Positions 15,360-35,183 of a DNA stretch of 64,000 nucleotides are shown one piece after another. Source of the stretch: an uncultured Taibaiella sp. (GTDB taxonomy: Bacteria; Bacteroidota; Bacteroidia; Chitinophagales; Chitinophagaceae). How positions within the stretch are numbered: the first letter of the stretch is position 1; the number at the start of each line of letters is the position of its first letter. The DNA is taken from contig CALMWT010000039.1 of assembly GCA_937870855.1 (NCBI GenBank), positions 1 through 64,000 on the forward strand, written 5' to 3'. The position numbers were made by a program, and so were the translations under genes. Under the pieces are notes generated by a model. It did no database searches, was not told the DNA's origin, and was given only the letters and a program-made list of their open reading frames with translations.

Positions 15360-15664
15360 CTGTTGTCAATAACAATCCGTTAGTACGAAATATCACTTCA
15401 CTGTTTCACTTTTGCAAAAGAGGTTCACTAAAAAAATAGAAGACCTGCGCAAATATGAGCGTGGATAAGCTGTTGATAAATATCGCCACGCATAGGCTGT
15501 AACGGAATATTGTCAGCTTTTCAACTTATTTTGCAAAGATTTAAGTGTTCTATAAAATAGGGACGGAGCATCCACTGAAATGCCTGATTTTACAGGTGTT
15601 TGAGCGAAGTAGCTTAACACGCAACAACATGATTTTTTCAACCAGATCATTAACTCACACAACC
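15360..15664 (+). other. Long untranslated leader region before wza, with a possible hairpin
   Basis: No convincing gene is present; the in-frame extension of wza from 15545 lacks a signal peptide and is not supported. A GCGTGG (15459-15464) / CCACGC (15486-15491) inverted repeat with a 21-base loop could form a weak hairpin in the RNA. No UpxY-type or ops-type antitermination element was recognised. A leader of this length before a capsule operon could hold regulation, but nothing here proves it. Confidence 0.3.
15459..15491 (+). promoter_or_regulatory. Possible leader hairpin before wza
   Basis: GCGTGG at 15459-15464 is the inverse complement of CCACGC at 15486-15491, with a 21-base loop. 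It would fold in the message upstream of the polysaccharide operon if transcription begins near 15366. The long loop makes stability modest. Confidence 0.25.
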
Positions 15665-16483: not shown

Positions 16484-16501
16484 CCTTGGCGCTGCGGCTT
16501 A

Positions 16502-18913: not shown

Positions 18914-18934
18914 GAACAGAACGAAGGATGTAAA

Positions 18935-20704
18935 ATGGAGCGAAAAAGCAACAATGTTTTCTCAGCGCTGAGAAAATTGTATTCAATATTCAATCAAAGC
19001 CAAAAGAGAAAATTTGGTTGGCTTGTTTTTTTCACCTTTTTAAGTTCTATCAGTGATCTCGTAGGTCTTGGTTTTGTAATACCTGTAGTGGGGCTTGTTT
19101 TGTCTGAAAGTTTTCATGAGCGTTTTGTGGCATTTGCACCTTTCCTTTCTTCCTTCAATAAAGAACATCTTTTATTAATTACGGTAGGCTTGTTCTTTTT
19201 GTTGATTGTCGTTAAAAATCTGTTTGGTCTCTACATCAATAAATTGCAGGTAAATTTTGTACGCCATCTATACGTTACCTCCACTGAAAGTGTGCTAAAT
19301 AAAGTGTACGAAAAACCCCTACCCGAAATTCTTGAAGCGTCTTCCAATAAATGGGTGAATAAAGTGACGGAGCTACAAGTGATGCTATGCAGCAACATGG
19401 CCATTTCCATTATGATCATCATAAACGAAGCGATGATATTTGCGCTCACTACAATAATAGTTTGTGCGTGGAACTGGCATTTATTTTTACTTCTGATAGT
19501 GGTGCTTATCCCTTCCATTGGTTTCTTTTACTCTCGTGTAAAGCACATTATAAAAGATGCCGGTGCTGAAAAAAACAAAAACTATGTAAACCTGCATCAC
19601 AAAGCGCAGGAAATGATTTTTGGGTACACAGATATAAAGATTGCAGGCACAGAAAAGAATTTTAAAAAAACCTTCGTAGATACCGCCCGACGTTTTAGTA
19701 TAGTGCAGGGAAAGGTTGACTTTATTTTGTTCATTCCCACGCGCATTATTGAAGTAGCGATTTTCCTTTGCATTACAATTATATTGCTCTATGGGGTTTA
19801 TGTTATCAAAGACATCAACAATATTGTAACAACCATTACGCTCTTTTCGGTTATCGCTTACAGAAGTATTCCTTCGGTAAACCGCTTTGTGATAGCCATG
19901 AATAATGTTACAGCAGCAGAATTTGTTTTAAACGACAAAGACTTTTTTCCAGATCATTCAATCAACACCTCGGACGAAGAAATTGCGCCGCTTCCTTTCA
20001 AAAACCAAATTCATTTCGACCATATTTCTTATCAATATCCCGGCAATGCAAAAAACGTTTTAAACAACTGCAATCTGGTAATAAAGAAGGGAGAGAAAAT
20101 CGGAATTGTAGGAAAATCAGGAACGGGAAAATCTACGTTGGTAAATAATATTTTGGGATTTCTGCAACCAACTTCAGGAAAAATTTATGTGGACGATGCA
20201 GAACTTAATCGTTCAAATTTCAAAAACTGGTGGAAAATTCTTGGCTACGTTCGTCAGGATGCTTTTATTCTCAACACTACTCTTGCAGAAAATATTGCGC
20301 TGGGAGAAACACTTGAACAACTCGACACGCAACGTGTGCATCATGCTATAAAAATGGCTAGCCTTACCTCTTTGGTAGAAGAAATGCCTGAGGGGATAAA
20401 TACTTTATTAAGCGAGCGGGGAAACAATTTATCGGGAGGACAAAAACAAAGAATTGCCATTGCACGAGCAATTTATAAAGGTGCGCAGGTTTTGATTTTC
20501 GACGAAGCTACATCTGCACTCGATTCAAAAACAGAGGAAGAAATCACAGACGCCATCAATGAACTTGGTAAAGAAGATCTCACCATTATCATAATCGCAC
20601 ACAGATACACTTCATTGAGATTTTGCGAAAAGATCTATAAAATAGATGACGGAATGATAAGCGATACATATTCCTATCAGGAGCTGGTGAAATCTGTTAA
20701 TTGA
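18935..20704 (+). CDS. ABC transporter, fused membrane and ATPase domains, PglK-like lipid-oligosaccharide flippase candidate
   Basis: 589 residues. Residues ~1-330 contain about six membrane helices; residues ~345-585 are an ATPase with Walker A GKSGTGKST (~392), signature LSGGQKQR (~499), and Walker B VLIFDEATSALD. The membrane part, especially VIAYRSIPSVNRF before the linker, resembles PglK, which flips lipid-linked oligosaccharides. No Wzx flippase was found in the window, so this is the best candidate for moving lipid-linked repeat units across the inner membrane. A generic lipid/peptide exporter remains possible. Confidence 0.85.
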   Translation: MERKSNNVFSALRKLYSIFNQSQKRKFGWLVFFTFLSSISDLVGLGFVIPVVGLVLSESFHERFVAFAPFLSSFNKEHLLLITVGLFFLLIVVKNLFGLYINKLQVNFVRHLYVTSTESVLNKVYEKPLPEILEASSNKWVNKVTELQVMLCSNMAISIMIIINEAMIFALTTIIVCAWNWHLFLLLIVVLIPSIGFFYSRVKHIIKDAGAEKNKNYVNLHHKAQEMIFGYTDIKIAGTEKNFKKTFVDTARRFSIVQGKVDFILFIPTRIIEVAIFLCITIILLYGVYVIKDINNIVTTITLFSVIAYRSIPSVNRFVIAMNNVTAAEFVLNDKDFFPDHSINTSDEEIAPLPFKNQIHFDHISYQYPGNAKNVLNNCNLVIKKGEKIGIVGKSGTGKSTLVNNILGFLQPTSGKIYVDDAELNRSNFKNWWKILGYVRQDAFILNTTLAENIALGETLEQLDTQRVHHAIKMASLTSLVEEMPEGINTLLSERGNNLSGGQKQRIAIARAIYKGAQVLIFDEATSALDSKTEEEITDAINELGKEDLTIIIIAHRYTSLRFCEKIYKIDDGMISDTYSYQELVKSVN

Positions 20705-20723
20705 AATTTGCACACACTCGTTC

Positions 20724-21908
20724 ATGAAAAATAAAATTCTGGTCGCTTCATTTGAATCGCTTACAGCTACAAGCGCGGGAGGAATCGGACACTTGGGCTA
20801 TAAGGTTGCAAAAGAATTACATCAGCGAGAACGATTAAAGAAGTTTGTAGTATCTGCTAAAGGAAAATTTGAAACACCTTTTTCTTCCTCACCAGTTAGT
20901 TTTACTTCTCGCTACTACCTCTTCCTTCTTCACAGGCTGGAAAAACTTTTCAATATTCAGATTTACAAATCGCGCTATCTGCAAGAGGTTTTGTACGATC
21001 ATTTTTGCTCCTTTCATTTAGATAAAACGGTCACCACACTTGTTACAACCACACCCTATCTTTTCCAAACTTTTCAGAAAGCACGAAAACTGGGAATTAC
21101 TATCTACTTCATTCCAGGAAATCCAGAAGACAACTACATCGCACAATTGGTGCACGAAGAAAATGCGAAGTATAACATTCAAGAAGACGATGCCTATACT
21201 TACCTGAACCGTTTAAATTATTACAATAAGTCATTGCCGCTTACGAACTACATCATTACCTATTCGGCTTTGATGGAAGAGTCTTACCGAAAGAAAGGTT
21301 ACGGCGATAAACTGATCAGTACGCGTGGATACTTGAAGCCGGATTTTTCTAAACACAAAACAACATCAGGTCAACAATCAGTTTTTAAAGTTTCATTTCT
21401 TGCCTTTACAGTTTTACTGAAAGGATTGCAATACTTACTGGAAGCTTGGAAAGATCTGCAACATCTGAACATAGAACTTCATGTGGGCGGACCGATTGAC
21501 AAGAATGTTCAAAACCTTATTGACGAACAATACAGCGACCTTAAGAATGTATTTTATCATGGTCGCGTAACAGATATTCCTTCCTTCTTTGAAAATAAAT
21601 CGCTGTATGTATTACCGAGTATTATTGACGGAGCACCGGTTACTATACTTGAAGCAATGCATTGCAGCGTTCCTGTGATAGTGAGTGATAATTGCGGCAC
21701 AAAGGACATAGTAGCAGAGGGAAAAAGTGGGTGGGTAGTGCCCAACAGAAATGCAGTGGCAATCAAGGAAAAGATATTAGAAGCCTATCACGATCCTCAA
21801 CGAACTGCTGAAATGGGACGGAATGGTAAAGAGATATTGGACAATTATAACATGCAGGATTTCGTTACCACCTTAGCCGATATTGTTTGCCACAACAAGT
21901 CTGCTTAG
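20724..21908 (+). CDS. Glycosyltransferase family 4-type
   Basis: 394 residues. N-terminal half begins ILVASFESLTATSAGGIGHLGYKVA, a GT-B acceptor-domain start; the C-terminal half carries the nucleotide-sugar site with GLQYLLEAWKDL, HGRVTDIPSFFENKSLYVLPS and the EAMHCSVPVIVSDNCGTKDIV signature (E-x7-E region). Retaining GT4 enzymes transfer sugar from nucleotide donors in the cytoplasm. Donor and acceptor cannot be assigned. Separated by 19 bases from the ABC gene upstream. Confidence 0.85.
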   Translation: MKNKILVASFESLTATSAGGIGHLGYKVAKELHQRERLKKFVVSAKGKFETPFSSSPVSFTSRYYLFLLHRLEKLFNIQIYKSRYLQEVLYDHFCSFHLDKTVTTLVTTTPYLFQTFQKARKLGITIYFIPGNPEDNYIAQLVHEENAKYNIQEDDAYTYLNRLNYYNKSLPLTNYIITYSALMEESYRKKGYGDKLISTRGYLKPDFSKHKTTSGQQSVFKVSFLAFTVLLKGLQYLLEAWKDLQHLNIELHVGGPIDKNVQNLIDEQYSDLKNVFYHGRVTDIPSFFENKSLYVLPSIIDGAPVTILEAMHCSVPVIVSDNCGTKDIVAEGKSGWVVPNRNAVAIKEKILEAYHDPQRTAEMGRNGKEILDNYNMQDFVTTLADIVCHNKSA

Positions 21909-22012
21909 TGCTTCTGTAAAGAACTGGTTAATAGGCTTAATTAGTTTTTAATAGAACCGTGATTGACCAATATTTGCAACGGAAACAATTTACTATAGAG
22001 ATAAATCATCGC

Positions 22013-22948
22013 ATGAAGGTTAGTGTTATCATGTGTGCTTACAATGTAAGCGAGTTTATTGATCGTGCGATCAATAGCATTCTGGAGCAAACATACCAGG
22101 ATTGGGAGCTAATAATATGCGACGATGCTTCAACCGACAATACCATTGAACTCATCGGCAAATACTTAAAAGACGAAAGAATAAAGCTTCATCAGCAAAC
22201 AAAAAACGTAGGCTATTTAAAGAATAAGAACTACGCTTTTACTCTTTACTCTGGCGATCTTATTACGCAACTTGATGCCGACGATACTTGCCCGCCCGAT
22301 AGACTCGAAAAGCAAGTAGCTGTTTTTAAAAATCATCCTGAAATAAAAATATGCGGTTCAAATTATCAGCAAATTGATCTGCACGACAAACCATTGGGCG
22401 CCACAAAACATCAAGAGGATTTTCTTATTTCCGATTTGAAAGATGAGTATCCATTTTGGTTTCCAGGCTTGATTTTTCACAAGGAACTGATAGACGAATT
22501 CGGTTTATTCTCAGAATACTTTTCAGGAATTTTTGGCGATGACAATTATTGGACTATCCGTGTAAACAGAAAATATCCTATCTACTTTCTCAAAGACGTT
22601 TTGTACAACTACCGGATCAATCCAAACTCAATTACCAATGTTTTCAATAACCCACGAAAATTAATTGTTGCCGAAATCATTCAAAAACTGATTGAACAAC
22701 AGATAGAAAGGAACACGGATTGGTTGGAAGAAGGACAGCAGGAAAAATTGCGGGCGTATGAAAAAGAACTGATGAGCAACAGCAACCTGATGGCGGAAAA
22801 ATACCGCTTGTGGGCGGCAAAAGCCATTGACAAAGGCGATATGGATCAAGCAAAAATGTTGCTGGGAAGATCGCTGAAATTGCAAGGAAGTAATCAGAAT
22901 ACTTACAAAACGATGCTCTACTATTTGCGTAGAAAGATTTTCAAATAA
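22013..22948 (+). CDS. Glycosyltransferase family 2-type
   Basis: About 311 residues from the ATG at 22013, where the GT-A fold begins (KVSVIMCAYNVSEFIDRAI); an upstream in-frame GTG at 21959 adds only a poorly conserved leader. Motifs: ELIICDDASTDNT (nucleotide binding), LDADDTCPPDRLEKQ (the metal-binding DxD), GDDNYWTIRV. The C-terminus is helical. An inverting sugar transferase of the polysaccharide assembly line. Confidence 0.85.
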   Translation: MKVSVIMCAYNVSEFIDRAINSILEQTYQDWELIICDDASTDNTIELIGKYLKDERIKLHQQTKNVGYLKNKNYAFTLYSGDLITQLDADDTCPPDRLEKQVAVFKNHPEIKICGSNYQQIDLHDKPLGATKHQEDFLISDLKDEYPFWFPGLIFHKELIDEFGLFSEYFSGIFGDDNYWTIRVNRKYPIYFLKDVLYNYRINPNSITNVFNNPRKLIVAEIIQKLIEQQIERNTDWLEEGQQEKLRAYEKELMSNSNLMAEKYRLWAAKAIDKGDMDQAKMLLGRSLKLQGSNQNTYKTMLYYLRRKIFK

Positions 22949-22963
22949 ACAGTTTCACGAAAG

Positions 22964-24043
22964 ATGTCTGCTGTATTAAACAAGATAAATTACTGGGCTG
23001 CGCCTTACGTTTGGAAGAAAAAATCTGCCGGACAAATAAAGGTGCTGCATCAGAACGTACAGCAGCCGTTTTTCAACCACATACCAAAGGTTACCGATAG
23101 CGCAATAGCAAACGCAATCATTCACGACAACCAAAAATGGGATCATCTTGAGTACATAAAAGAAGTAGAAGGGAATCTGTGTATTGATCCAAAATCTGGT
23201 TTTTTAATTGACGAAGACGGAATGATATTGAAAGAGAGCATCATTTTCGATCATTACGGCGCGTATCCTGAAAAGCTATCGTTCAACACGCTAAAGAAAA
23301 CTAAGATACCCGAAGTTGTTTTGTATGACCATTATTGGTCGCAAAACTATTTTCATTTCTACTCTGATATTTTTACAAAGCTCTGCCTCCTCAACGATAA
23401 AGCCTCACACTTAAAAAAGCTATCTCTTGTTGTCAGCAAAAAAATAAGTGAGACACGGGCATTCAAATTTTTTACACAATTTCCTGAAGCCGCATCTTTC
23501 AACTGGTATGTGCAGGAACCCGATGAGATCATTGAAACAAAGAAGGCCTATTTATTGCAACCTATGCCCTACGCAGCAAATAATTGGAACTGGGTAAAGC
23601 AACTGGCACAAGATTATCTAAAGCCTTACGACCCTACCAAAAAAATATTCATCAACCGCCCTGCTGCCACGGGAAGGCATATTGCCAACTTCGAGGAAAT
23701 AAAACCAATATTGATACAAGAAGGTTTTGAGATTGAAGAAATGGAAGGAAAAACAATCGAGGAGCAAATTGCACTGTTTTCCTCTGCTTCGGTTGTTGCC
23801 TCCATTCATGGCGCTGCGATGGCAAACATAGTTTACTGCGATAAACGATGTAAAATATTGGAGGTAACTGCCGACGAATGCATCAACTCACACTACTACT
23901 GGCTTACTACTTCGTTAGGATTGTCCGAGTACGATTGTCTTACGGGTACTAAGCTGGAAGTAAAAAGATTCTTTTATCCAAAAGGCCGTTTTTTTCTTGA
24001 TGCTGAAAAAACCAGAAAATACTTAAGAAAAATATCCGCGTAA
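22964..24043 (+). CDS. Glycosyltransferase family 61-type (DUF563)
   Basis: 359 residues. The central segment VVLYDHYWSQNYFHFYSDIF and the C-terminal SIHGAAMANIVYC match the two hallmark regions of DUF563/GT61 proteins (a W..NY.H...D motif and an HGA.x.N motif). IFINRPAATGRHI is the usual R-containing strand. GT61 enzymes in bacteria occur in capsule and LPS loci. Starts 15 bases after the GT2 gene and precedes FkbH by 10 bases. Confidence 0.8.
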   Translation: MSAVLNKINYWAAPYVWKKKSAGQIKVLHQNVQQPFFNHIPKVTDSAIANAIIHDNQKWDHLEYIKEVEGNLCIDPKSGFLIDEDGMILKESIIFDHYGAYPEKLSFNTLKKTKIPEVVLYDHYWSQNYFHFYSDIFTKLCLLNDKASHLKKLSLVVSKKISETRAFKFFTQFPEAASFNWYVQEPDEIIETKKAYLLQPMPYAANNWNWVKQLAQDYLKPYDPTKKIFINRPAATGRHIANFEEIKPILIQEGFEIEEMEGKTIEEQIALFSSASVVASIHGAAMANIVYCDKRCKILEVTADECINSHYYWLTTSLGLSEYDCLTGTKLEVKRFFYPKGRFFLDAEKTRKYLRKISA

Positions 24044-24053
24044 CTGTTCACAA

Positions 24054-25790
24054 ATGAAAACCTTCAATCAGCTAAAGAAAAACCTGAAAAAAGATAAGTC
24101 TGAATTAAAGACTGTATCCGTGGCGGTGCTCGCTGATGCTGCTTCGCAATTACTTACACAGGCAATACAAGCTTATGGCATTGAGGCTGGCTACAATTAT
24201 GATATTTACGAAGCCGATTACGACCAGATAAATAGCGAGGTATTCAATTCAAATTCCGATCTCTATCAATTCGCTCCCGAATACATTTTCCTCAACATTT
24301 GCAGCGAGCATTTACTCAAAGAATTTTCTAAAAAAACAATAGTAGAGAGAAGGAATTTTTCTGCTACAAAGCATGAATATCTTGAAACACTGATCCAAAA
24401 TATTTCGTCTGCAATTCCCTCAAAAATTATCATTACCAACTTTCCCGAAATTGAAGATGGTGTGTTTGGCAACTATGCCAATAAGCTGGACAATTCATTC
24501 TGTTATCAGATCAGAAAACTGAACGTGCAAATGATGGAAATGGCGATGGCATACAACAACGTTTTCATTTGTGATGTGCAGCAATTGCAACAGAGACTAG
24601 GGCGCAACTTCACCTTCGACCCAAAGATGTATATCAACGGCGATATGGTTTATAGCGTAGATTTCCTTCCATTCATTGCTAAAAATGTTACCGACATCAT
24701 TGCTTCGATAAAAGGAAGTTTTAAAAAGTGCATCATTCTAGATCTTGACAATACGATGTGGGGAGGAATTATTGGTGATGATGGAATAGAAGGAATTCAG
24801 GTTGGAAGTCTGGGAATTGGAAAAGCATTTACTGAATTGCAATTATGGATTAAACAATTAAAAGAGCGCGGAATTATAGTTGCGGTTTGCAGCAAAAACA
24901 CAGAGGAAATAGCAAAAGAGCCTTTTGAAAAACACCCGGAAATGGTTTTGCGATTGGATGACATTGCTGTATTTGTAGCCAATTGGGAAACTAAAGTTGA
25001 CAACATTCGTCACATCCAAAACATCCTCAACATCGGGTTTGATTCGATGGTGTTTATTGATGATAATCCGTTTGAGCGGGAAATGGTAAAGAGCGCAATT
25101 GCCGAAATTATTGTGCCTGAATTACCGGAAGATCCTGCGGAATATCTTACCTATTTACGAAGTATAAACCTTTTTGAAACGGCATCATTTACAAACGAAG
25201 ACACCGAACGGACAAAGCAGTATCAGGAAGAAGCGCAACGAAATGTGCTGCAAAAATCTTTTGCAAATGAGGATGCATTTTTAGAAAGCCTCGGAATGAC
25301 CGCTACGACAAAACCATTCGATAAATTTTCAATTCCCCGTGTAGCACAGCTTACACAACGCTCAAATCAATTTAACCTGCGTACTATACGCTACACAGAA
25401 GAAGACATCAACAATATCTCATCCAATAAAAATTACCACACCTTGAGCATAGCCCTTCAGGATAAGTTTGGCGACTATGGTTTAATTGCTGTAATAATTT
25501 TAAAAGAAACGGCGAACGATACACTTTTCATTGACACCTGGATAATGAGTTGCAGAGTATTGAAAAGAGGAGTAGAAAACTTTACTTTAAACAAGATCAT
25601 AGTGCTTGCAAAAGAGAACGGTTACCGCAAAGTGGTTGGAGAATATATTCCTACACCCAAAAATGGACTGGTAAAAAACCACTACGAATCACTTGGATTT
25701 AAAATGACAGACAACCATTGGGAGTTGAGCATTGATGAATACCTGCTCCTCACGAATTTTATTACCGAACAAATAGAAGTAACACAATAG
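24054..25790 (+). CDS. FkbH-like HAD-superfamily protein with C-terminal acetyltransferase-like domain
   Basis: 578 residues. The N-terminal ~220 residues resemble the SGNH-like extension of FkbH proteins; the HAD domain starts with CIILDLDNTMWGGIIGDDG (Asp230/Asp232 as nucleophile pair), then VAVCSKNTEE (motif II) and VFIDDNPFEREMV (motif IV). The last ~150 residues look like a GNAT fold (LRTIRYTEED ... GLVKNHYESLGF). FkbH enzymes take 1,3-bisphosphoglycerate and load a glyceryl group onto an acyl carrier protein. An ACP gene lies 8 bases downstream, followed by an MBOAT acyltransferase, so here the glyceryl (or a related acyl) is probably destined for the polysaccharide. Confidence 0.88.
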   Translation: MKTFNQLKKNLKKDKSELKTVSVAVLADAASQLLTQAIQAYGIEAGYNYDIYEADYDQINSEVFNSNSDLYQFAPEYIFLNICSEHLLKEFSKKTIVERRNFSATKHEYLETLIQNISSAIPSKIIITNFPEIEDGVFGNYANKLDNSFCYQIRKLNVQMMEMAMAYNNVFICDVQQLQQRLGRNFTFDPKMYINGDMVYSVDFLPFIAKNVTDIIASIKGSFKKCIILDLDNTMWGGIIGDDGIEGIQVGSLGIGKAFTELQLWIKQLKERGIIVAVCSKNTEEIAKEPFEKHPEMVLRLDDIAVFVANWETKVDNIRHIQNILNIGFDSMVFIDDNPFEREMVKSAIAEIIVPELPEDPAEYLTYLRSINLFETASFTNEDTERTKQYQEEAQRNVLQKSFANEDAFLESLGMTATTKPFDKFSIPRVAQLTQRSNQFNLRTIRYTEEDINNISSNKNYHTLSIALQDKFGDYGLIAVIILKETANDTLFIDTWIMSCRVLKRGVENFTLNKIIVLAKENGYRKVVGEYIPTPKNGLVKNHYESLGFKMTDNHWELSIDEYLLLTNFITEQIEVTQ

Positions 25791-25798
25791 AAAAAATC

Positions 25799-26044
25799 AT
25801 GGAAAAGAACCAAATCATCAACGAAGTAAACCACATTTTTAAAGACGTGCTGGATAACGACGACATAATGATAAATGAAAGTACAACTGCAAAAGATGTG
25901 GAAGAATGGGATTCACTCAATCATATTCAACTGGTAGTAGCCATTGAAAAGCATTTTAAAATTCGCTTCACAACGCAGGAAATCCAGAACTGGAAAAATG
26001 TAGGCGAAATGGCAGATTGCATTTTGCAAAAGAGATCAAACTAA
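25799..26044 (+). CDS. Acyl carrier protein
   Basis: 81 residues, typical ACP size. The phosphopantetheine site is Ser39 in EEWDSLNHIQLVVAIE, and residues up to ~20 and from ~45 form the usual acidic helices. It lies between the FkbH-like gene (8 bases) and the MBOAT gene (51 bases). The position argues for a dedicated carrier of the FkbH product rather than the fatty-acid ACP. It needs a phosphopantetheinyl transferase, which is not in the window. Confidence 0.92.
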   Translation: MEKNQIINEVNHIFKDVLDNDDIMINESTTAKDVEEWDSLNHIQLVVAIEKHFKIRFTTQEIQNWKNVGEMADCILQKRSN

Positions 26045-26095
26045 TATTTTAATCAGAAGGAAGAAGCTCATAAAAACTTTTTAACGCTCAACAAC

Positions 26096-27571
26096 ATGTT
26101 GTTTAATTCTTTTGAGTTTCTGATATTTTTTCCGGTAGTAACCGCCCTCTATTTTTTGCTGCCGCATAAAGCAAGATGGAGTTGGTTGCTGGCAGCTTCC
26201 TGTTTTTTCTACATGTTCTTTAAACCGGAGTATATTCTTATTCTCGGTTTCACCATCGTCATAGATTATTACGCAGGCATTTTAATAGAGCAGCAAACCA
26301 ATGCAAAGCGGCGAAAACAATATTTGCTGCTCAGCCTTATTGCCAACATAGGTGTGCTTGCTATTTTCAAATACTACAATTTTATTAACGACAACATCAC
26401 CGGACTTGCAGGATTTCTGGGATTCGAGAATAAGATCCCCTATCTCACAATGTTGTTGCCCATCGGACTCTCGTTCCATACGTTTCAGGCAATGAGTTAC
26501 ACCATAGAAGTGCATAGAGGCAACCAGAAAGCAGAGCGGCATTTTGGTATTTATGCATTGTACGTAATGTTCTATCCACAGCTCGTAGCGGGCCCAATAG
26601 AACGCCCACAAAATATCCTGCATCAGTTTCATGAAAAGCACAGTTTCAAACTTTCCAATCTCTATGAAGGTTTACAACAAATAGTATGGGGAGTTTTTAA
26701 AAAGGTGGTAATCGCAGATAGGATTGCAATAATCGCAGATCATGTTTTTGCTAATCCGCAACAGCACACAGGCTTTGCTTTGCTATTGACGATTGTACTT
26801 TATTCCTTCCAGATTTATTGCGATTTCTCCGGCTATTCTGACATTGCACTCGGCACCGCGAAAGTGATGGGTTTTGATTTGATGAAGAATTTCAATTTTC
26901 CCTTCCGAAGCAAATCTGTTACAGAATTTTGGCGGAGGTGGCATATCTCATTGTACACCTGGTTCAATGACTATCTATATACACCACTGGCAATTGCAAA
27001 ACGCGACTGGGGAAAGTTGGGAATTATCTTTGCAATTATGATCACCTTCAGCCTAAGCGGGCTGTGGCACGGCGCAAGTTGGACCTTTGTAGTATATGGT
27101 GTGTTGCATGGCATTGCCATAAGCTACGAAGCGCTGACCAAAAAATTCCGCAAAAATCTTTCAAAGAAAATTCCATCCTTTATCTACAATCCTTTCAGCG
27201 TACTAACTACTTTTTTCTTTTGCTCACTGGCTTGGGTTTACTTCAGAGCAATTTCCTTCACGGATGCAAATTATATTCTTACGCATCTCTTTACTACGAA
27301 GGAAGGACAATCGTATTTTCAATTGCCAGCGGTGCAAACCTGGGGTGTGCCCGATCTTTATCTGGGAGTTACGCTTACGGAGCTTTTCGGCACATTAAGT
27401 CTTATACCTCTATTGCTATTGTTGGAGCAACTAATTAGTAACAGAAAAAATGAACCCGTAATTAGCAAGCTACCGGCAACCGTTCGCTGGCCGCTTTATT
27501 ACACCGTTTTATTCCTGCTAATTTTTCTGGGAGTTTATGGCAAAAACAACTTCATCTACTTTCAATTTTAA
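26096..27571 (+). CDS. MBOAT-family O-acyltransferase (AlgI/DltB-like)
   Basis: 491 residues with about ten to twelve membrane helices. Family motifs: LPIGLSFHTFQAMSYTIEV, FYPQLVAGPIER, FPFRSKSVTEFWRRWHISL and the essential-His region SGLWHGASWTFVVYGVLHG (His ~324). AlgI and DltB carry acyl groups from a cytoplasmic donor across the membrane to a periplasmic polymer. The ACP directly upstream suggests an ACP-thioester donor, as for DltB. The next gene encodes an anchored SGNH-like partner. Confidence 0.92.
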   Translation: MLFNSFEFLIFFPVVTALYFLLPHKARWSWLLAASCFFYMFFKPEYILILGFTIVIDYYAGILIEQQTNAKRRKQYLLLSLIANIGVLAIFKYYNFINDNITGLAGFLGFENKIPYLTMLLPIGLSFHTFQAMSYTIEVHRGNQKAERHFGIYALYVMFYPQLVAGPIERPQNILHQFHEKHSFKLSNLYEGLQQIVWGVFKKVVIADRIAIIADHVFANPQQHTGFALLLTIVLYSFQIYCDFSGYSDIALGTAKVMGFDLMKNFNFPFRSKSVTEFWRRWHISLYTWFNDYLYTPLAIAKRDWGKLGIIFAIMITFSLSGLWHGASWTFVVYGVLHGIAISYEALTKKFRKNLSKKIPSFIYNPFSVLTTFFFCSLAWVYFRAISFTDANYILTHLFTTKEGQSYFQLPAVQTWGVPDLYLGVTLTELFGTLSLIPLLLLLEQLISNRKNEPVISKLPATVRWPLYYTVLFLLIFLGVYGKNNFIYFQF

Positions 27572-27585
27572 ACGGAGCAGTGAAA

Positions 27586-28563
27586 ATGACGAAACGCGAT
27601 TTATATAAGATTATCTTGTTCCTGATGATTCCGGTGCCAGTATTATTTCTGGGCAATTACATCATAGATAAGGGACTTCAAAAATCAAAAAGCCAATACT
27701 TTGATGTATGGAACGAAATAAGAAGTGGTGGAATCAATGCCGATGTTTTAGTGATGGGATCATCGCGTGCATGGGTACATATTTCACCGGCAATTTTAGA
27801 CTCATCATTGCACCTATCCTCTTACAACCTGGGGCTTGACAATTGGAGTTTCTTAATGCAGCATTGCCGGCTAAAAGTTTTTCTCGAACACAATCCTAAG
27901 CCCAGATTGATAGTTCACAGTCTCGACTACTTGATGTTTGAAAAGAACAAAGAATTGTATGGCGACATTCAGTTTCTTCCCTACATGGAGGATGAAACAA
28001 TTTATGAAGCGACAGAAGGCTACATGGGGAGTTTCAATATGCTACAACGATTTGTACCGATGTATAAATACAGGAACAACGGGGACCTTATGATAGAAGG
28101 AATTGCAAGTTTTCTCGGCTTTCAGGTAAACAAATCGCATAAGTACAAAGGGTATGAAGGCATGGTAAAAAACTGGGACAGTACATTCGCCGACTTCGTA
28201 CACGAAAATCCGAAAGGCTACAAAGTGCAACTGGATAGTGTAATCATAAAAGATTTTGAACGATACCTGCAATATTGTAACGACAATAAAATACCGGTAA
28301 TACTTACTTACACACCCGAATATTACAGAGCACAACAAATAACCACTAACAGACAAGAAGAATTTGCGCTTTACCACTACTTCGCAAAAAAGTACGGATG
28401 CGTTTTGCTCGATTATTCACAAGATTCACTGTGCTACAACACCGATTATTTCTATAACTCACAACACCTGAACAAGGAAGGATCTGAAATATTTAGTCGA
28501 AAACTTGCGAGGGATTTGCAACCCTATTTAACGAACCGGGCAAACATTGCCCTACGAAAATGA
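27586..28563 (+). CDS. Membrane-anchored SGNH-like protein, partner of the MBOAT transferase
   Basis: About 325 residues from the ATG at 27586, which has a GGAG at 27574-27577 with eight bases of spacing; the upstream GTG at 27580 would be too close. One N-terminal membrane helix (~residues 8-26) is followed by an extracytoplasmic domain opening with VLVMGSSRAWVHISP, an SGNH-like block I with candidate Ser59/60. Near the C-terminus LLDYSQDSLCYN and FYNSQHLNKEGSEIFS resemble the block with paired Asp/His. This architecture parallels DltD and AlgX/AlgJ-type partners of MBOAT enzymes. Nine to fifteen bases after the MBOAT stop. Confidence 0.75.
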   Translation: MTKRDLYKIILFLMIPVPVLFLGNYIIDKGLQKSKSQYFDVWNEIRSGGINADVLVMGSSRAWVHISPAILDSSLHLSSYNLGLDNWSFLMQHCRLKVFLEHNPKPRLIVHSLDYLMFEKNKELYGDIQFLPYMEDETIYEATEGYMGSFNMLQRFVPMYKYRNNGDLMIEGIASFLGFQVNKSHKYKGYEGMVKNWDSTFADFVHENPKGYKVQLDSVIIKDFERYLQYCNDNKIPVILTYTPEYYRAQQITTNRQEEFALYHYFAKKYGCVLLDYSQDSLCYNTDYFYNSQHLNKEGSEIFSRKLARDLQPYLTNRANIALRK

Positions 28564-28667: not shown

Positions 28668-29594
28668 ATGCGTTTTGCCATAAGGGACGACGACACCAAT
28701 TTTTTCACCATACCTGAAGCTATTCAAAATAGCTACTCAGATGTCTGGCACTTAGTACCACCTTCTCTTTGTGTAATCACTAAAGTAAAGGGCAACTGGC
28801 CTGATTGGGTAGAACATATTTACAGACACAAACAAAAAACGGACTGGCAGGCGTGGGAAAGAGATAATACGGTTCATCCGCTTGACAGAAATAAAGATTT
28901 GGTGGACTTTCTGAAATCATGTTTGCAAGGCAAAACAATTGACGTATGCTTTCATGCAAAGCACCACAGAAATGATGATGCTACACTGCCACCGGAAGTA
29001 GAAAGTAACTATGTGAGATGCGCGGAATACCTGACCACTAAAGACCGCACAAAGGAAATTGTTGAAGAGATTGAATATCTCAGCCAACTCCTGAATTACA
29101 AAGTATCAGTATTTGCACCACCACAAGATTTGCTATCTATGGAAGGCTATAATTCTGTTTTAAAAGCCGGTCTGAATGTTTGTGGTGGGGGAATAAGTTT
29201 TTTGAAGAAACAAAAAGATACAAGGGGCGTAATGAATTTGCTGAAGCAATTTTCTTTTAAAACAATTTATCCGAATGAGCCATATCCCTACGTTCTTGAT
29301 TATAAAACGCACAGGGAAATACCCTATTACTATCCTTTGCTTCCAGATACAACTTTAGATGAGTTGATCAAGCATTTTGAAATGGTGAGACGGCACGATG
29401 GCGATTTTGTATTATCTACACATCATGCTGAATTCAATTACAGAATGGAATACGACAACGCAATAACCGTAAAAAATGTACTTGACATGTTTTTAGAACA
29501 CATTTCCAAGTACGAACTAAGTTATGTAACACTGTCGCAGTTGCTAAGTAAAGAAACACTGTCGAGAGCTTTCGTAATACCTATGTTATCTTAA
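28668..29594 (+). CDS. Polysaccharide-deacetylase-like (NodB/CE4-superfamily) protein
   Basis: 308 residues without a signal peptide. The N-terminal FAIRDDDTNFF supplies an aspartate pair (around residues 7-9) and CFHAKHHR supplies histidines 96, 99 and 100, the metal-site arrangement of the NodB fold; FAPPQDL and LSTHHAEF resemble later motifs. It may remove acetyl groups from a sugar intermediate or cap, but lack of export signals suggests cytoplasmic action on a lipid-linked or nucleotide-linked substrate. Probably read from its own promoter. The family call is by motif only. Confidence 0.7.
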   Translation: MRFAIRDDDTNFFTIPEAIQNSYSDVWHLVPPSLCVITKVKGNWPDWVEHIYRHKQKTDWQAWERDNTVHPLDRNKDLVDFLKSCLQGKTIDVCFHAKHHRNDDATLPPEVESNYVRCAEYLTTKDRTKEIVEEIEYLSQLLNYKVSVFAPPQDLLSMEGYNSVLKAGLNVCGGGISFLKKQKDTRGVMNLLKQFSFKTIYPNEPYPYVLDYKTHREIPYYYPLLPDTTLDELIKHFEMVRRHDGDFVLSTHHAEFNYRMEYDNAITVKNVLDMFLEHISKYELSYVTLSQLLSKETLSRAFVIPMLS

Positions 29595-29606
29595 AAATTT
29601 TGCCTC

Positions 29607-30584
29607 ATGAAATTAGTATCCATTGTAGTTCCAAATTATAATTGCGAAGAGTTCCTTCCTAAGTGCCTGGATTCCGTAATAAACCAAACCTACCGGAACA
29701 CAGAAATAATCATTTGCGACAATGGTTCTTCAGATCGTTCCGTAGAGATCCTTAATGAATATGCTGCAAAAGACAGCCGCATAAAAGTTTTGATCAATGA
29801 AGAGAATCAGGGTTTGATCAACTGCTACAACCGCATGTTTTTTGCTGCAACCGGCGACTACATTATGATACAGGATGCTGACGATTGGGCTGATCTTACA
29901 CGGGTAGAAAAACAAGCTGCAATAATGGATGAGCATGGCGTAGGATTATGTCTTACCGATAGTTATTATCATTCTCCACTTTTCCCTACCAGCAGAGTGC
30001 AAAGAAATTATAATGGTCCAATCTATGCGGCCGATGAAGAAACATGGGCTCCTGCAACCATCATGTTTCGTCGGGAGGTATTGAATGAAATACCAGGCTT
30101 TCATTCCTACTTCGATCGCCTCACAAGCTATGATCGTTATTTTATTCTCGATATTATCTCTCGCTATGGTGGTTATTATATTGATGAATGTCTGTATCAT
30201 GTATGGGCAAGACCCAACAGCGACCATCGGAGCATTGATCTTACAGACAAGCGAGCAATCAAGAAGCTAATATCGGAAGACATTTACTACAAATTGAAAG
30301 AGCAACGCGTAAAATCGGGCACCGACTATCTGAAAGAAAACAACACAGATGGAATGGAAAAACTGGAAGGTCCAATGTTGCATAACAAAGTATTTGTTGC
30401 CGATAAACTACGTCTGATGGCCTGCATTCAAATAGACTATGGAAATTTGAAAGCCGCAAAACAATTGCTCTTAAACGCTATTAAAATTGCTCCCTTCTTT
30501 TCAAAAAATTACCGCTCATTGCTGTATTATTACAAAGCCAACAGAGCGCAAGAATCTTCGGGCGCACAACCAAAACTGGCATAA
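29607..30584 (+). CDS. Glycosyltransferase family 2-type
   Basis: 325 residues. GT-A fold start LVSIVVPNYNCEEFLPKCLDSVINQTY, EIIICDNGSSDRS, and the DxD-type MIQDADDWADLTRVEKQ. ATIMFRREVLNEIPGF lies at the acceptor side. Overall organisation, including the C-terminal helical tail ending in AKQLLLNAIKIAP, resembles the GT2 at 22013, suggesting the two are distant paralogues. Starts 12 bases after the deacetylase-like gene. Confidence 0.85.
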   Translation: MKLVSIVVPNYNCEEFLPKCLDSVINQTYRNTEIIICDNGSSDRSVEILNEYAAKDSRIKVLINEENQGLINCYNRMFFAATGDYIMIQDADDWADLTRVEKQAAIMDEHGVGLCLTDSYYHSPLFPTSRVQRNYNGPIYAADEETWAPATIMFRREVLNEIPGFHSYFDRLTSYDRYFILDIISRYGGYYIDECLYHVWARPNSDHRSIDLTDKRAIKKLISEDIYYKLKEQRVKSGTDYLKENNTDGMEKLEGPMLHNKVFVADKLRLMACIQIDYGNLKAAKQLLLNAIKIAPFFSKNYRSLLYYYKANRAQESSGAQPKLA

Positions 30585-30591
30585 ACCAAAC

Positions 30592-31788
30592 TTGAAAATT
30601 CTGATTGCAACAGAAGTAATTCATCCGGGAGGAGCAGAAACTTTTTTGCTGAGACTATCTCAGTCGCTGCATGAAAAAGGGCACAACATTACCATCTTTA
30701 ATTTTCATGGGGACATTTACAACAGAGAATTAAAATCGAAAATTGCACCTGATGTAAAAGTGGTGTGCGCTACTAATCCTGTAGGATCACTTACCCGCTT
30801 CGTTGACTCGTTGTTCCTGAAAATAGGAATTGATTTTAGCTTTAGAAATTATTTCATCGGAAAGAGTTTACAGCGATTCTTAGAAGCCAATAAGCCTGAA
30901 ATAATTCATAGCCATCTGTTTAAAACGGATGTCATTTGCTGTAAGGTTGCTAACGAAAATATTCCCGTTGTATCAACCATGCACGGCGACTATGCTATGT
31001 ACTACAACAGTATCTCCCAAAATGAAAAGCCAAAGCTCTTAGACTTTAAGAACAAACTGAAATTTGTACTTCAGCAACTAAAAAGCATTGTATGTATTTC
31101 AAAAGAGCAGGAGATTTTCTTTGCTCAGGAAATGCAGTCGTTATCTTCAACTCCTTTACAACTCACAAAAATTTACAACGGTTATACAGCCACTGAAAAT
31201 CCAGAAGTTACCATTTCGCGTCATACGCTTAACATCCCAAAAGATGCGTTTGTTTTTGGAATGGTGGCACGCGGTATTCCGGCAAAGGGATGGGAAGAAT
31301 TAATTGAAGCATTTACTCGCCTCAACAAAAAAAATAGTTTTCTGGTATTAGTAGGTGGTAGCGACTATGTAAATAAGCTTCAGGAAAAATACAAGAACAA
31401 CCAACAAATAATTTACAGCGGTACGGTTACAAACCCGCTTGAATGGATTAAATTATTCGATGTAGGCCTGCTTCCTTCGTATTTTGGATCGGAAAGTTTA
31501 CCAACAGTTATCATGGAGTATCTTTATTGCCACAAGCCCGTTATCGCAACGAGAATCGGTGAAATTCCTGCAATGATAGAATATGAAAAACAGACCGCAG
31601 GTTTGTTGGTTGAAATTGTGAATGGACGAACAGATATAGATCAGCTGCACGAAAAAATGTTGAAGGTGTACACAGATAAAAACACCTACAATGATTTGAA
31701 AAATGCAACAACAAAATGTTTTGAACAGTTCGACATGGATCGCTGTGTAAAGGCTTACGAAGAGATATACAAACAACACATTTTTTGA
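30592..31788 (+). CDS. Glycosyltransferase family 4-type with TTG start
   Basis: About 398 residues. The fold begins LKILIATEVIHPGGAETFLLRLS at a TTG at 30592, seven bases after the previous stop; no ATG is available nearby, and the frame further upstream (to a TTG at 30487) only re-reads the end of the GT2 gene. GT4 features: IIHSHLFKTDVICC, FGMVARGIPAKGWEELIEAF, and LLPSYFGSESLPTVIMEYLYCHKPVIAT. A sugar transferase of the locus. Its stop TGA overlaps the next gene's TTG start. Confidence 0.82.
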   Translation: MKILIATEVIHPGGAETFLLRLSQSLHEKGHNITIFNFHGDIYNRELKSKIAPDVKVVCATNPVGSLTRFVDSLFLKIGIDFSFRNYFIGKSLQRFLEANKPEIIHSHLFKTDVICCKVANENIPVVSTMHGDYAMYYNSISQNEKPKLLDFKNKLKFVLQQLKSIVCISKEQEIFFAQEMQSLSSTPLQLTKIYNGYTATENPEVTISRHTLNIPKDAFVFGMVARGIPAKGWEELIEAFTRLNKKNSFLVLVGGSDYVNKLQEKYKNNQQIIYSGTVTNPLEWIKLFDVGLLPSYFGSESLPTVIMEYLYCHKPVIATRIGEIPAMIEYEKQTAGLLVEIVNGRTDIDQLHEKMLKVYTDKNTYNDLKNATTKCFEQFDMDRCVKAYEEIYKQHIF

Positions 31789-33008
31789 GGGAGAAAATAT
31801 TACTACTAATTACCAATCTGGGCCAAGGAGGTGCGCAACGAGTCTTCCACGACCACAGTGTTTTTCTGAATGAATCTTATCATGTGGACGAGGCAGTTTT
31901 TAACCTTGACGAGAGCGATAATCTCTTCCAATCGGGCAACAAACTTTTTTCGTTAGACGTAAACGCCGGAAAAGGATTTGTGGGAAAAGCGCTTAACTTT
32001 TTTCGCCGATGCTTACGCCTGAAAAAAATTATTGAAGGAGAAGAGTACAGCGTTTGTATCAGTCACATGGATGGCGCCAATTGGGTAAATGTACTTTCGC
32101 TTTCAAAAGCCAAAAAAATTCTTGTGGTGCATGGAACTATTTTGCACGACCACAACCAAAGCAAATGGATGCAGTTTATCCGCAAAAATCTGATCATACC
32201 ATTTGTTTACAATAAAGCTAACGTTACAGTTACCGTAAGTGAAGGAATAAAGTACGAGCTACAACAATTTTGCAAAGTGAAAAATGCCGTTGCAATACCC
32301 AACTATTTTGATGTTGAAAAAATTCGTTCACTTGCCAAAAAACCACTGGAGCCGCATTGGGAAAATCTATTCTCTACACACGAAATACTGATTACCTCTG
32401 GAAGGTTTAACGAGCAGAAAAAACAACGGTTTCTGTTCCCCTTATTGAAACGACTCAAAGAAATAAACCCCAGAGTGCGCCTTGTATTGCTTGGTGATGG
32501 CAAACTGCGGGGAAACCTTATGCAGATAGCGAAGGAAAATGGTCTTTCTTACTATTCCGTTTGGGATGATATGCAGCCATTTTCGGAAGATTATGATGTT
32601 TATTTTACCGGTTATACGACTAATCCATTTCAATATTTGCGTCGAAGTAAACTCTTCCTATTTCCATCGGGGTGGGAAGGATTTCCTATGGCGCTTTGCG
32701 AAGCCATGATCAGCGGTGTGCCTGTGCTAACAGCAGATTGCCCTACAGGTCCGCGACAAATATTAGCGCCTCATTCTTTCGACCCAACTTACTCCTTGAA
32801 AAAAGCAGAACAAACGGACTATGGATGGCTGATGCCAATGACCGATAAAGCAAGTTTTGAAGATGAGTGGCATAACGCAATTGTAAAAATGTTGCACCAT
32901 GAAAAACTGAGCGAAAACATTAGAGAAAATGCGGCGGCGCGAATGATGATGTATAGCAAAGAAAAAGTAGTAGGGCAATGGAAAGAACTTATTGACTCGT
33001 TATTATAG
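31785..33008 (+). CDS. Glycosyltransferase family 4-type with TTG start overlapping the previous stop
   Basis: 407 residues. The start is TTG in TTGA, four bases shared with the upstream stop, an arrangement expected for translational coupling. N-terminal KILLLITNLGQGGAQRVF is the typical GT4 opening with the GGA loop; the donor domain has LITSGRFNEQKKQRFLFPLL, LLGDGKLRGN, LFLFPSGWEGFPMALCEAM and PVLTADCPTGPRQI. The PTGPR.I ending is common in N-acetylgalactosamine-type GT4 enzymes (PglJ/PglH relatives), which would fit a GalNAc-derived polymer, though this is inference. Confidence 0.85.
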   Translation: MREKILLLITNLGQGGAQRVFHDHSVFLNESYHVDEAVFNLDESDNLFQSGNKLFSLDVNAGKGFVGKALNFFRRCLRLKKIIEGEEYSVCISHMDGANWVNVLSLSKAKKILVVHGTILHDHNQSKWMQFIRKNLIIPFVYNKANVTVTVSEGIKYELQQFCKVKNAVAIPNYFDVEKIRSLAKKPLEPHWENLFSTHEILITSGRFNEQKKQRFLFPLLKRLKEINPRVRLVLLGDGKLRGNLMQIAKENGLSYYSVWDDMQPFSEDYDVYFTGYTTNPFQYLRRSKLFLFPSGWEGFPMALCEAMISGVPVLTADCPTGPRQILAPHSFDPTYSLKKAEQTDYGWLMPMTDKASFEDEWHNAIVKMLHHEKLSENIRENAAARMMMYSKEKVVGQWKELIDSLL

Positions 33009-33012
33009 TAGT

Positions 33013-34110
33013 GTGAAGATTCTGATCATAGATAATTCTGTTGCCTACACAGGTGCATTCAAATGTGCTTTGAATGAGGCAGATATTTTATCAGATCAAC
33101 ACAACTTCATTTTCATTCTTCCGCAGGAAAGCAAAGTAGTTTCAATTCTTCAGGAAAAAGGTTATTGCGTTTATACACTTCCGCTAAAAGAAATTAGCAA
33201 GTCACTTTTTGCAATAGCGAAATACCCGTTTTATTACCTTAAAAATCTTCTTGCAGTAAAGAAAATAGTGCGACAGGAAAAAGTAGAAGTTGTTCAAATC
33301 AACGACTTCTATAACCTGCTCGGTGCGGGAATAAAAGCTGCGGGCTATAAAGGAAAACTCATTACTTATGTGCGTTTTCTTCCATCAACTTTGCCAACAC
33401 CATTAAGGAAAATATGTACAAATGCCGCGCAACATTTTTCTGATAAAGTAGTAGCCGTTTCTGATGCAGTGCTAAAACAATTGCCACCACACGATAAGAA
33501 CATTCGCATTTACGACCCAGTAAAACTTTCTGAAAAAATCTACACAGAAGAATTACATACCAACCATATTCAGCTTCTTTATCTCGCAAATTTCACCAGA
33601 GGAAAAGGTCAGGAACATGCTGTTGAAGCATTTTGCAAAGCGTATAAAAAAAACAAAGACTTACGATTAAAATTCACTGGCGGTGATATGGGTTTGGCAA
33701 AAAATGCAGCTTTCAGATCCGAGCTTATAAATAGGGTAAAGAAATTAGGGTTGGAAGATGTGGTGGCTTTTGAAAACTTCGCTACAGACGTGGAAAGCGA
33801 AATAAATAGCGCCAGTATCGTCCTCAATTTTTCTGAAGCTGAATCATTCTCCATGACTTGTCTTGAAGCTTCGTTTTACGGAACACCCGTTATAGCTACA
33901 AAATGTGGAGGCCCTGAAGAGATAATCGCACACAATGAAACAGGTTTGCTGGTAGTAAAAAAAGATGTGGACGCAATGACTGAAGCAATTTTAGACCTTG
34001 CAAATAATCCTGAAAAAAGACTACGATTTTCGATGCGTGGGAAGCAGTATGTGCGGGAAAAATTCAGCATTGAGGTGTTCAAAAAATCGTTCACAGAAAT
34101 TCTTCGCTAA
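33013..34110 (+). CDS. Glycosyltransferase family 4-type with GTG start
   Basis: About 365 residues from the GTG at 33013, four bases past the previous stop; the in-frame TTG at 32992 lies inside the upstream gene. The N-terminus (KILIIDNSVAYTGAF) and the donor domain (LLYLANFTRGKGQEHAVEAF, VLNFSEAESFSMTCLEASFYGTPVIATKCGGPEEII) are standard GT4. The stop TAA shares one base with the following ATG. Specificity unknown. Confidence 0.83.
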   Translation: MKILIIDNSVAYTGAFKCALNEADILSDQHNFIFILPQESKVVSILQEKGYCVYTLPLKEISKSLFAIAKYPFYYLKNLLAVKKIVRQEKVEVVQINDFYNLLGAGIKAAGYKGKLITYVRFLPSTLPTPLRKICTNAAQHFSDKVVAVSDAVLKQLPPHDKNIRIYDPVKLSEKIYTEELHTNHIQLLYLANFTRGKGQEHAVEAFCKAYKKNKDLRLKFTGGDMGLAKNAAFRSELINRVKKLGLEDVVAFENFATDVESEINSASIVLNFSEAESFSMTCLEASFYGTPVIATKCGGPEEIIAHNETGLLVVKKDVDAMTEAILDLANNPEKRLRFSMRGKQYVREKFSIEVFKKSFTEILR

Positions 34111-35183
34111 TGGCCAAAAGTGTTTTATTTCTTGTGCCCTACCCTCTTAAAGTTGCGCCTTCCCAACGCTTCCGTGTAGAGCTTTATGAACCTGTATTGC
34201 AGGAGCATAATGTGCGTTATGAAATTGCAAGCTTTATGGATGACGCAACATGGAACATCATCTTCAAACCGGGAAATACTTTTAAGAAAATAGCAGGAAT
34301 TGCCAAAGGTTATCTGAGACGAATCGGACATCTCTTCAAAGCCACGCAATACGATTATGTATTTATCCATCGCGAAGTCGCCCCACTTGGGCCTCCGATA
34401 TTTGAATGGATCATTGCGAAGGTGCTTCACAAAAAAATCATCTACGATTTTGACGACGCAATATGGATTTCTAATATCAGTACCGCTAATAAATTTGCGA
34501 GTTGGTTGAAGGCTTTTTGGAAAGTGAAATACATCTGCAAGTGGGCACACGTAGTAACCGGTGGCAACGAATATCTGAACAATTATGCAAGGCAACATAA
34601 CGCCAGACAAACAATCATTCTTCCTACTTGTGTGGACGTTGAAAGGAAGCATAACAAAGTAAAAATTCATGGGAACCACAAACCGGTTATTGGATGGACG
34701 GGTAGCCATTCAACGCTATTTTATCTTGATGAAATTGTTCCTCTTTTAAAGAAATTGCAAGAGGAAAACAACTTTACCTTTCTTGTAATTGCAGACAAAA
34801 AACCAGAAATAGATTTAAGAGACTGGCAGTTTATAAAATGGAATGAAGCAACAGAAGGAAGTGATCTTTTGAAGATGGACATTGGAATAATGCCCCTAAA
34901 ATCTGATGCATGGAGCGAGGGTAAATGCGGGTTTAAACTGATTCAATATTTATCTTGCGGCATACCTGCAATCGCCGACCCAATAGGCGTAAACAAAGTG
35001 ATTATTGACAACGAAAAGAATGGTTTTATCTGTAGTACAAAAGAAGAGTGGAAAGAAAAATTACAACTCCTCATCACCGATCCTGCACTGAGAAAAGAAC
35101 TTGGAGAAAAAGGCAGAGAAAAAATTAAAAAGGAATACAGTATTCAATCGCAGGCTCAGAAATTTCTTGCTTTGTTCCAATAA
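34110..35183 (+). CDS. Glycosyltransferase family 4-type
   Basis: 357 residues, starting in TAATG overlap with the upstream gene. N-terminal SVLFLVPYPLKVAPSQRFRVELY is the start seen in a Bacteroidota subgroup of GT4 proteins; VIHREVAPLGPPIFEW-like and YDFDDAIWISNIS follow, and the donor site includes IGWTGSHSTLFYL and GIMPLKSDAWSEGKCGFKLIQYLSCGIPAIA. Its stop codon directly abuts the stop of the opposing Wzy-like gene with no spacer. Confidence 0.83.
   Translation: MAKSVLFLVPYPLKVAPSQRFRVELYEPVLQEHNVRYEIASFMDDATWNIIFKPGNTFKKIAGIAKGYLRRIGHLFKATQYDYVFIHREVAPLGPPIFEWIIAKVLHKKIIYDFDDAIWISNISTANKFASWLKAFWKVKYICKWAHVVTGGNEYLNNYARQHNARQTIILPTCVDVERKHNKVKIHGNHKPVIGWTGSHSTLFYLDEIVPLLKKLQEENNFTFLVIADKKPEIDLRDWQFIKWNEATEGSDLLKMDIGIMPLKSDAWSEGKCGFKLIQYLSCGIPAIADPIGVNKVIIDNEKNGFICSTKEEWKEKLQLLITDPALRKELGEKGREKIKKEYSIQSQAQKFLALFQ

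Follow-up and report, generated by a model that had tools for sequence, protein, structure and literature searches.

How might a polymer be acylated from a carrier protein at a locus where an FkbH protein stands in place of the adenylating enzyme DltA, which loads the carrier in the Dlt system? The question is raised by four adjacent genes at positions 24054 to 28563 of a 64,000-nucleotide stretch of DNA from an uncultured Taibaiella sp. (contig CALMWT010000039.1; the whole stretch is called the window here), which an original prediction from the bare sequence had assigned to an FkbH-like protein, an acyl carrier protein (ACP), an MBOAT acyltransferase and a membrane-anchored SGNH-like protein. 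Gene coordinates (Table 1), profile scores and a structure model of the fourth protein bear this arrangement out; all four genes lie on the same strand, with gaps of 8, 51 and 8 bp. We put the probability that these genes encode an MBOAT-SGNH polymer acylation system with an FkbH-loaded carrier protein as its donor at roughly 70%.

The first protein scores 304.7 bits against TIGR01686, about twofold the curated cut-off of 146.65, and 219.7 bits against FkbH_N. Its HAD-IIIC residues (Table 1) are all invariant in the alignment, including the Asp230/Asp232 motif from which an FkbH-like HAD protein had been proposed. An alignment of 380 residues links it to 3SLR, the solved structure of a BF1531 fragment that was deposited as an uncharacterized protein. 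The predicted structure of the window FkbH comprises three domains (SGNH-like, HAD and GNAT), the last with a Z of ~15 to GNAT structures. Cys500, in an SCR motif of the GNAT domain, is kept in 101 of 102 aligned FkbH proteins, members of the polyketide synthase (PKS) type included; we infer that the acyl-enzyme forms at this Cys and that the pantetheine arm is taken in by the GNAT fold. Cys279, near HAD motif II, was rejected as the catalytic Cys, since it is conserved in just 83 of the 102. The GNAT-like part had been suggested to make a derivative of glycerate, but because the domain and its Cys occur throughout FkbH, it is a standard part of the family and was rejected as an extra tailoring enzyme.

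The second protein is an ACP, as predicted: it matches PP-binding with 31.5 bits, and Ser39 (WDSL) is invariant across 24 sequences. The loading of glyceryl from 1,3-bisphosphoglycerate onto standalone ACPs by FkbH is the accepted assignment in the tetronate and methoxymalonyl pathways (PMC7489565), and for the vioprolide FkbH the activation of 3-phosphoglycerate has been demonstrated in work cited in PMC10099666.

The third protein matches PF03062 (93.9 bits), and the His of its LWHGA motif, His325, which had been read as the essential MBOAT His, is invariant in a 36-sequence alignment. Its sequence matches solved DltB structures, and it reaches 167.8 bits against the DltB equivalog TIGR04091, well under the cut-off of 375. 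Its C-terminus, which had gone unmentioned, reads FIYFQF; Tyr488 and Phe491 are invariant in the same alignment and Phe486 nearly so, and every complete cassette MBOAT among the relatives carries such an FXYXXF tail. In the Dlt system the Tyr of an FXYXXF motif in DltX carries the acyl group across the membrane, while in PatA the motif is fused to the C-terminus of the MBOAT; there, acetylation of the motif's Tyr and its use by PatB have been demonstrated (PMC12148441). The tail is also found in 60 of 65 other Bacteroidota MBOATs from an unbiased set (the remaining five read PIYLQF), and it is therefore a general feature of MBOAT-SGNH systems; an adjacent ACP is rare.

For the fourth protein, searches of Pfam, NCBIfam and PDB sequences gave no significant match (DUF1574, at E 0.0018, is below the cut-off), so that an SGNH assignment from sequence was rejected and the assignment rests on a structure model. 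The AlphaFold model (mean pLDDT 92.9) adopts an SGNH fold; in a Foldseek search the leading hits are DltD structures (3bma, 6o93 and 7dxm; E 1e-5 to 3e-4), and VIA-align gives Z values of 16 for TesA, 13.8 for PatB and 13.0 for DltD (over 262 residues). With this fold and a single predicted N-terminal transmembrane segment, the description as a membrane-anchored SGNH-like protein stands. Ser62 and His296 are invariant in the alignment.

To see how far the arrangement recurs, we used 85 loci, namely the 80 closest FkbH relatives out of 84,980 species genomes and five other loci, some of them ending at contig ends. FkbH is accompanied by an ACP in 80 of the 85 and by an MBOAT as well in 54, whereas an ACP lies next to only 3 of the 65 other Bacteroidota MBOATs; chance association of the cassette genes is therefore excluded. 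In a second, class-wide sample of 37 FkbH loci, not picked by closeness, an ACP is present in 22 and an MBOAT in 11, and all 11 MBOAT-bearing loci have the ACP. On an MBOAT tree the cassette MBOATs, which were sampled through FkbH, cluster with 6 label changes for 54 rows, compared to a mean of 39.5 after shuffling (0 of 500 shuffles as low).

The three other Bacteroidota MBOATs with an adjacent ACP (L215, L218 and L221) each have an AMP-binding ligase immediately ahead of that ACP. They offer a natural comparison with a loader of the DltA type, and FkbH takes the ligase's slot in the window, which supports the predicted Dlt-like ACP-MBOAT-SGNH route with FkbH in the place of DltA. A GDSL-like protein precedes the ligase in the two of these loci that were examined for it; the order GDSL, AMP-binding ligase, ACP and MBOAT in L215:2098-7023, L218 and L221 amounts to a Dlt-like set whose shuttle tail is fused. 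For the window itself a plain Dlt system was rejected: a scan of 20 genes between 13307 and 39879 gave no AMP-binding match, there is no separate DltX microprotein in the gap of just 8 bp between the MBOAT and SGNH genes (the motif being fused to the MBOAT), and the DltB score is below the cut-off. We conclude that this is a real, conserved acylation cassette of the Dlt/Pat type, with FkbH as its predicted loader.

We suggest a route whose direct basis is the gene content, the catalytic residues, the folds, the conserved order and the fact that the MBOAT lineage is linked to the ACP, while the FkbH chemistry and the acyl-Tyr shuttle are taken from work on relatives. FkbH would take a 3-carbon hydroxyacyl group from 1,3-bisphosphoglycerate, its HAD domain removing the phosphate, and would pass it via Cys500 of the GNAT domain to the phosphopantetheine of the ACP, yielding glyceryl-ACP. 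In the window genome, a MaoC dehydratase and an SDR reductase encoded in trans may turn this via an enol/pyruvyl stage into lactyl-ACP. With His325, the MBOAT would then transfer the acyl group across the membrane to Tyr488 in its own tail; the tail would pass it to Ser62 of the DltD-like SGNH protein, and this protein would esterify the capsule or exopolysaccharide that the surrounding operon produces.

As to the acyl group, most relatives have genes added near FkbH; in the 85 loci these include MaoC (33), SDR (37), epimerase-like VOC (18), S-adenosylmethionine-dependent methyltransferase (10) and KAS III (6); the active-site motifs are mostly intact (MaoC 30/33, SDR 38/38). Eighteen of the 54 MBOAT cassettes have no local MaoC, SDR, VOC or methyltransferase, 19 have MaoC-SDR, and the others have VOC, a methyltransferase, single members or mixtures. 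On the FkbH tree these tailoring sets change repeatedly, with at least 8-9 forced changes for each of the two commonest sets, and five closely related Weeksellaceae-type loci (L034, L035, L101, L126 and L129) have four different sets. The same five loci contain up to three tandem MBOAT-SGNH pairs, with different tailoring modules at seemingly one site. It seems to us an evenly balanced matter whether these cassettes form a widespread class of envelope-polymer acylation systems, in which a constant frame of FkbH, ACP, MBOAT and SGNH protein is combined with exchangeable modules (none, MaoC-SDR, VOC or methyltransferase) to turn 1,3-bisphosphoglycerate into different hydroxyacyl esters on surface glycans. 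If so, glyceryl, epimerised glyceryl, O-methylglyceryl and lactyl esters would make up a swappable acyl code on these glycans.

The window operon has no MaoC, SDR, VOC or methyltransferase gene, and our first idea, that its product is glyceryl for lack of MaoC-SDR, was dropped once such a pair was found in trans. The pair lies on the same contig, ~13 kb past the end of the window and 51 kb from FkbH (C39:76846-78017, corresponding to L131:12846-14017). Its SDR scores 354 bits against a model of the cassette SDRs, within the 315-367 bits of MaoC-linked cassette members from independent samples, whereas two other SDRs of the window genome score 154 and 158; in a tree it is nested within the cassette SDR clade, apart from these two. 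The syntenic Flavipsychrobacter genome also has this detached pair, flanked by the same neighbours (L269); of the other genomes tested, most of which have locally minimal cassettes, none has a detached MaoC-SDR pair of the cassette type. At E<1e-50 the trans SDR is found in 2 of 296 Bacteroidota genomes, both of which bear FkbH. Chemically, loss of water from glyceryl-ACP leads to the enol of pyruvyl-ACP, and reduction by the SDR then leads to lactyl-ACP.

Because of this cassette-type pair, and because a genome-wide search finds one FkbH and one close ACP of the cassette type in the window genome, we favour lactyl or another MaoC/SDR product as the acyl group, at about even odds; plain glyceryl is a serious but less probable candidate, and some other group is improbable. 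We predict that lactyl or another processed C3 hydroxyacyl is at least as likely as glyceryl. The glycerate decoration that had been proposed thus survives as a candidate but is not secure, since the trans pair points to a processed C3 acyl group. In its strict form, where unprocessed D-glyceryl passes from the ACP to the polysaccharide and the MaoC-SDR pair serves otherwise, we consider it rather unlikely. The window operon has none of the tailoring genes, as is also true locally of the 18 cassettes mentioned above, and a cassette-type SDR is absent from the rest of most such genomes that were tested, so a glyceryl-only version of the system probably exists; yet the window genome and its syntenic relative do carry the pair, and with one FkbH and one close ACP it has no other obvious substrate.

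Several points weigh against the route via lactyl-ACP and a locally made polysaccharide. We infer the action of MaoC and SDR on the FkbH-ACP product from gene linkage only, and for the conversion of glyceryl-ACP into lactyl-ACP we lean on the precedent of the bryostatin BryA loading module. Block V of the SGNH protein reads NSQH, with Asn293 in place of the Asp of DxxH that most relatives have; since this Asn is common to the window and L053, L065, L072, L078 and L111, SGNH activity is not certain for the window and these five relatives. FkbH-ACP feeds other routes too, as some such pairs occur without an MBOAT. The acceptor, finally, may not always be a locally encoded polysaccharide, because no glycosyltransferase was recognised close to around half of the cassettes.

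This last point bears on a further alternative, in which the acyl group goes elsewhere than to the polysaccharide of the locus, for instance to a lipid, the lipopolysaccharide core, a glycoprotein glycan or peptidoglycan. A glycosyltransferase was recognised within ~9 kb in 26 of 53 MBOAT cassettes, a lower bound given that detection used profiles derived from the window, and none was recognised in the other 27. The frame of FkbH, ACP, MBOAT and SGNH protein thus recurs across genomes, as its 54 of 85 loci indicate, but not always in polysaccharide loci. We nonetheless find another acceptor improbable: in the window the cassette sits in a single run between Wza/Wzc/ABC/glycosyltransferase genes and five further glycosyltransferases, a polysaccharide operon of Flavipsychrobacter (L053) has the same gene order with gene-by-gene identities of 54-83%, or 63-83% in the part upstream of the cassette, and a cassette of Sinorhizobium meliloti adjoins capsule export genes. 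The prediction that the cassette lies inside an export locus is borne out in the window and in L053. Slightly less probable again is that the MBOAT-SGNH pair is an ordinary acetyl-CoA-dependent O-acetyltransferase and FkbH-ACP, merely sharing the operon, feeds a separate cytoplasmic step such as sugar-nucleotide N-acylation: all well-studied Gram-negative MBOAT-SGNH pairs do use an acyl-CoA donor (PMC12148441) and many loci have FkbH-ACP but no MBOAT, but the cassette MBOATs form a few clades separate from ACP-less MBOATs, the ACP accompanies 11 of 11 MBOATs in the class-wide sample, the AMP ligase comparators show ACP use recurring with MBOATs, and some cassettes stand alone without sugar genes.

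The mechanism of MBOAT-SGNH systems has recently been unified, with a carrier-protein donor and a separate shuttle in Dlt and a CoA donor and a fused shuttle in Pat. The cassette, with FkbH as the putative loader, combines the carrier-protein donor of Dlt with the fused shuttle of PatA. It shares with the teichoic-acid D-alanylation system (DltABCD/DltX) the carrier-protein donor, the MBOAT, the DltD-like SGNH protein (by fold only) and the FXYXXF shuttle, but has FkbH instead of the adenylating ligase DltA, a shuttle fused to the MBOAT instead of a separate DltX, and a Bacteroidota exopolysaccharide setting instead of teichoic acid. With the O-acetyltransferases PatA/PatB, AlgI/AlgJ/AlgX and WssH/WssI it has in common an MBOAT with a C-terminal FXYXXF and a periplasmic SGNH partner; those use acetyl-CoA and no dedicated ACP, whereas an ACP and its loader are part of the cassette. 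MBOAT/SGNH pathways besides Dlt have no carrier protein, as stated in PMC12148441. The FkbH/ACP glycerate-loading pairs of polyketide pathways (tetronates, methoxymalonyl-ACP) likewise consist of FkbH and a standalone ACP, with a dehydrogenase, methyltransferase or KAS III acting later on glyceryl-ACP, but there the product goes to a PKS and not to an MBOAT and out of the cell. The suomilide/banyaside cluster also contains an FkbH domain and an MBOAT (BslP); there FkbH is inside a nonribosomal peptide synthetase, and for the MBOAT an independent acylation of a hexose has been proposed (PMC13122637). In the open-access literature we found FkbH together with MBOAT only in papers on aeruginosin/suomilide, though an earlier description is possible, and nothing on MBOAT, acyl carrier protein and exopolysaccharide together, nor any account of the product of such a cassette.

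Outside Bacteroidota, loci with both ACP and MBOAT occur in Clostridium, Ignavibacteria and one genome labelled Deltaproteobacteria, and Treponema has FkbH-ACP without an MBOAT. The frame also recurs, more distantly, in Alphaproteobacteria: a plasmid of Rhodobacteraceae SC52 carries the set ACP-FkbH-MBOAT-SGNH-VOC, and pSymB of S. meliloti the set VOC-MBOAT-SGNH-like-ACP-FkbH (L222:8477-13677 and L224:7796-13677), with an MBOAT that ends in FLYQGF and neighbours annotated as capsule biosynthesis, ABC export and RkpR. These cassettes (annotated as ACP, HAD-IIIC phosphatase, MBOAT, hypothetical and VOC) have the same four functions side by side, but their FkbH is more distant (33-38% identity), the gene order differs and VOC is added. 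The SGNH-like gene on pSymB is annotated as a TonB-dependent receptor in one record, a label that looks wrong. The copy on pSymB makes the cassette testable in a laboratory strain. From the cassette one would expect a range of hydroxyacyl esters on the surface polymers of bacteria, which routine analysis of base-treated glycans could miss, and module swapping would let the decoration be read from the genes. Elsewhere, FkbH-ACP is found with KAS III and without an MBOAT near glycosyltransferases (L085, L092 and L102), possibly for tetronate-like or extended acyl groups, and FkbH homologues occur in human-faeces records labelled, as deposited, Bacteriophage sp. (GenBank MT835480.1 71479-73140 and MT839313.1 3-896).

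Table 1. The cassette and the surrounding operon, with positions in the window.
Feature	Position	Strand	Details
FkbH protein gene	24054..25790	+	578 aa
FkbH domains			SGNH-like N-domain ~19-221; HAD-IIIC with D230/D232, S280, K314, D336/D337; GNAT-fold C-domain ~415-562 with invariant Cys500
ACP gene	25799..26044	+	81 aa; phosphopantetheine Ser39 in WDSL
MBOAT O-acyltransferase gene	26096..27571	+	491 aa; essential-type His325 in LWHGA
FIYFQF, C-terminal on MBOAT (FXYXXF acyl-shuttle motif, DltX-like element)	27551..27568	+	Tyr488; from sequence
DltD-like SGNH protein gene	27580..28563	+	327 aa; N-terminal transmembrane anchor; Ser62 and His296
Upstream operon part: Wza-like export protein, Wzc-like chain-length protein, ABC transporter, GT4, GT2 and GT61	15545..24043	+	
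Downstream operon part: 308-aa protein without Pfam hit, one GT2 and four GT4 glycosyltransferases	28668..35183	+	

Two further genes of the window lie beyond this operon on the opposite strand. The one at 35184-36530 (-) encodes a 448-aa protein without a Pfam hit and with ~8 predicted transmembrane segments, a candidate polymerase or flippase of the locus. The other, at 39923-42115 (-), encodes a 730-aa protein, likewise without a Pfam hit, that has an NPPF motif like that of DNA N6-adenine methyltransferases and an AAGTG motif; located at the edge of the polysaccharide locus, it is perhaps a restriction-modification protein.

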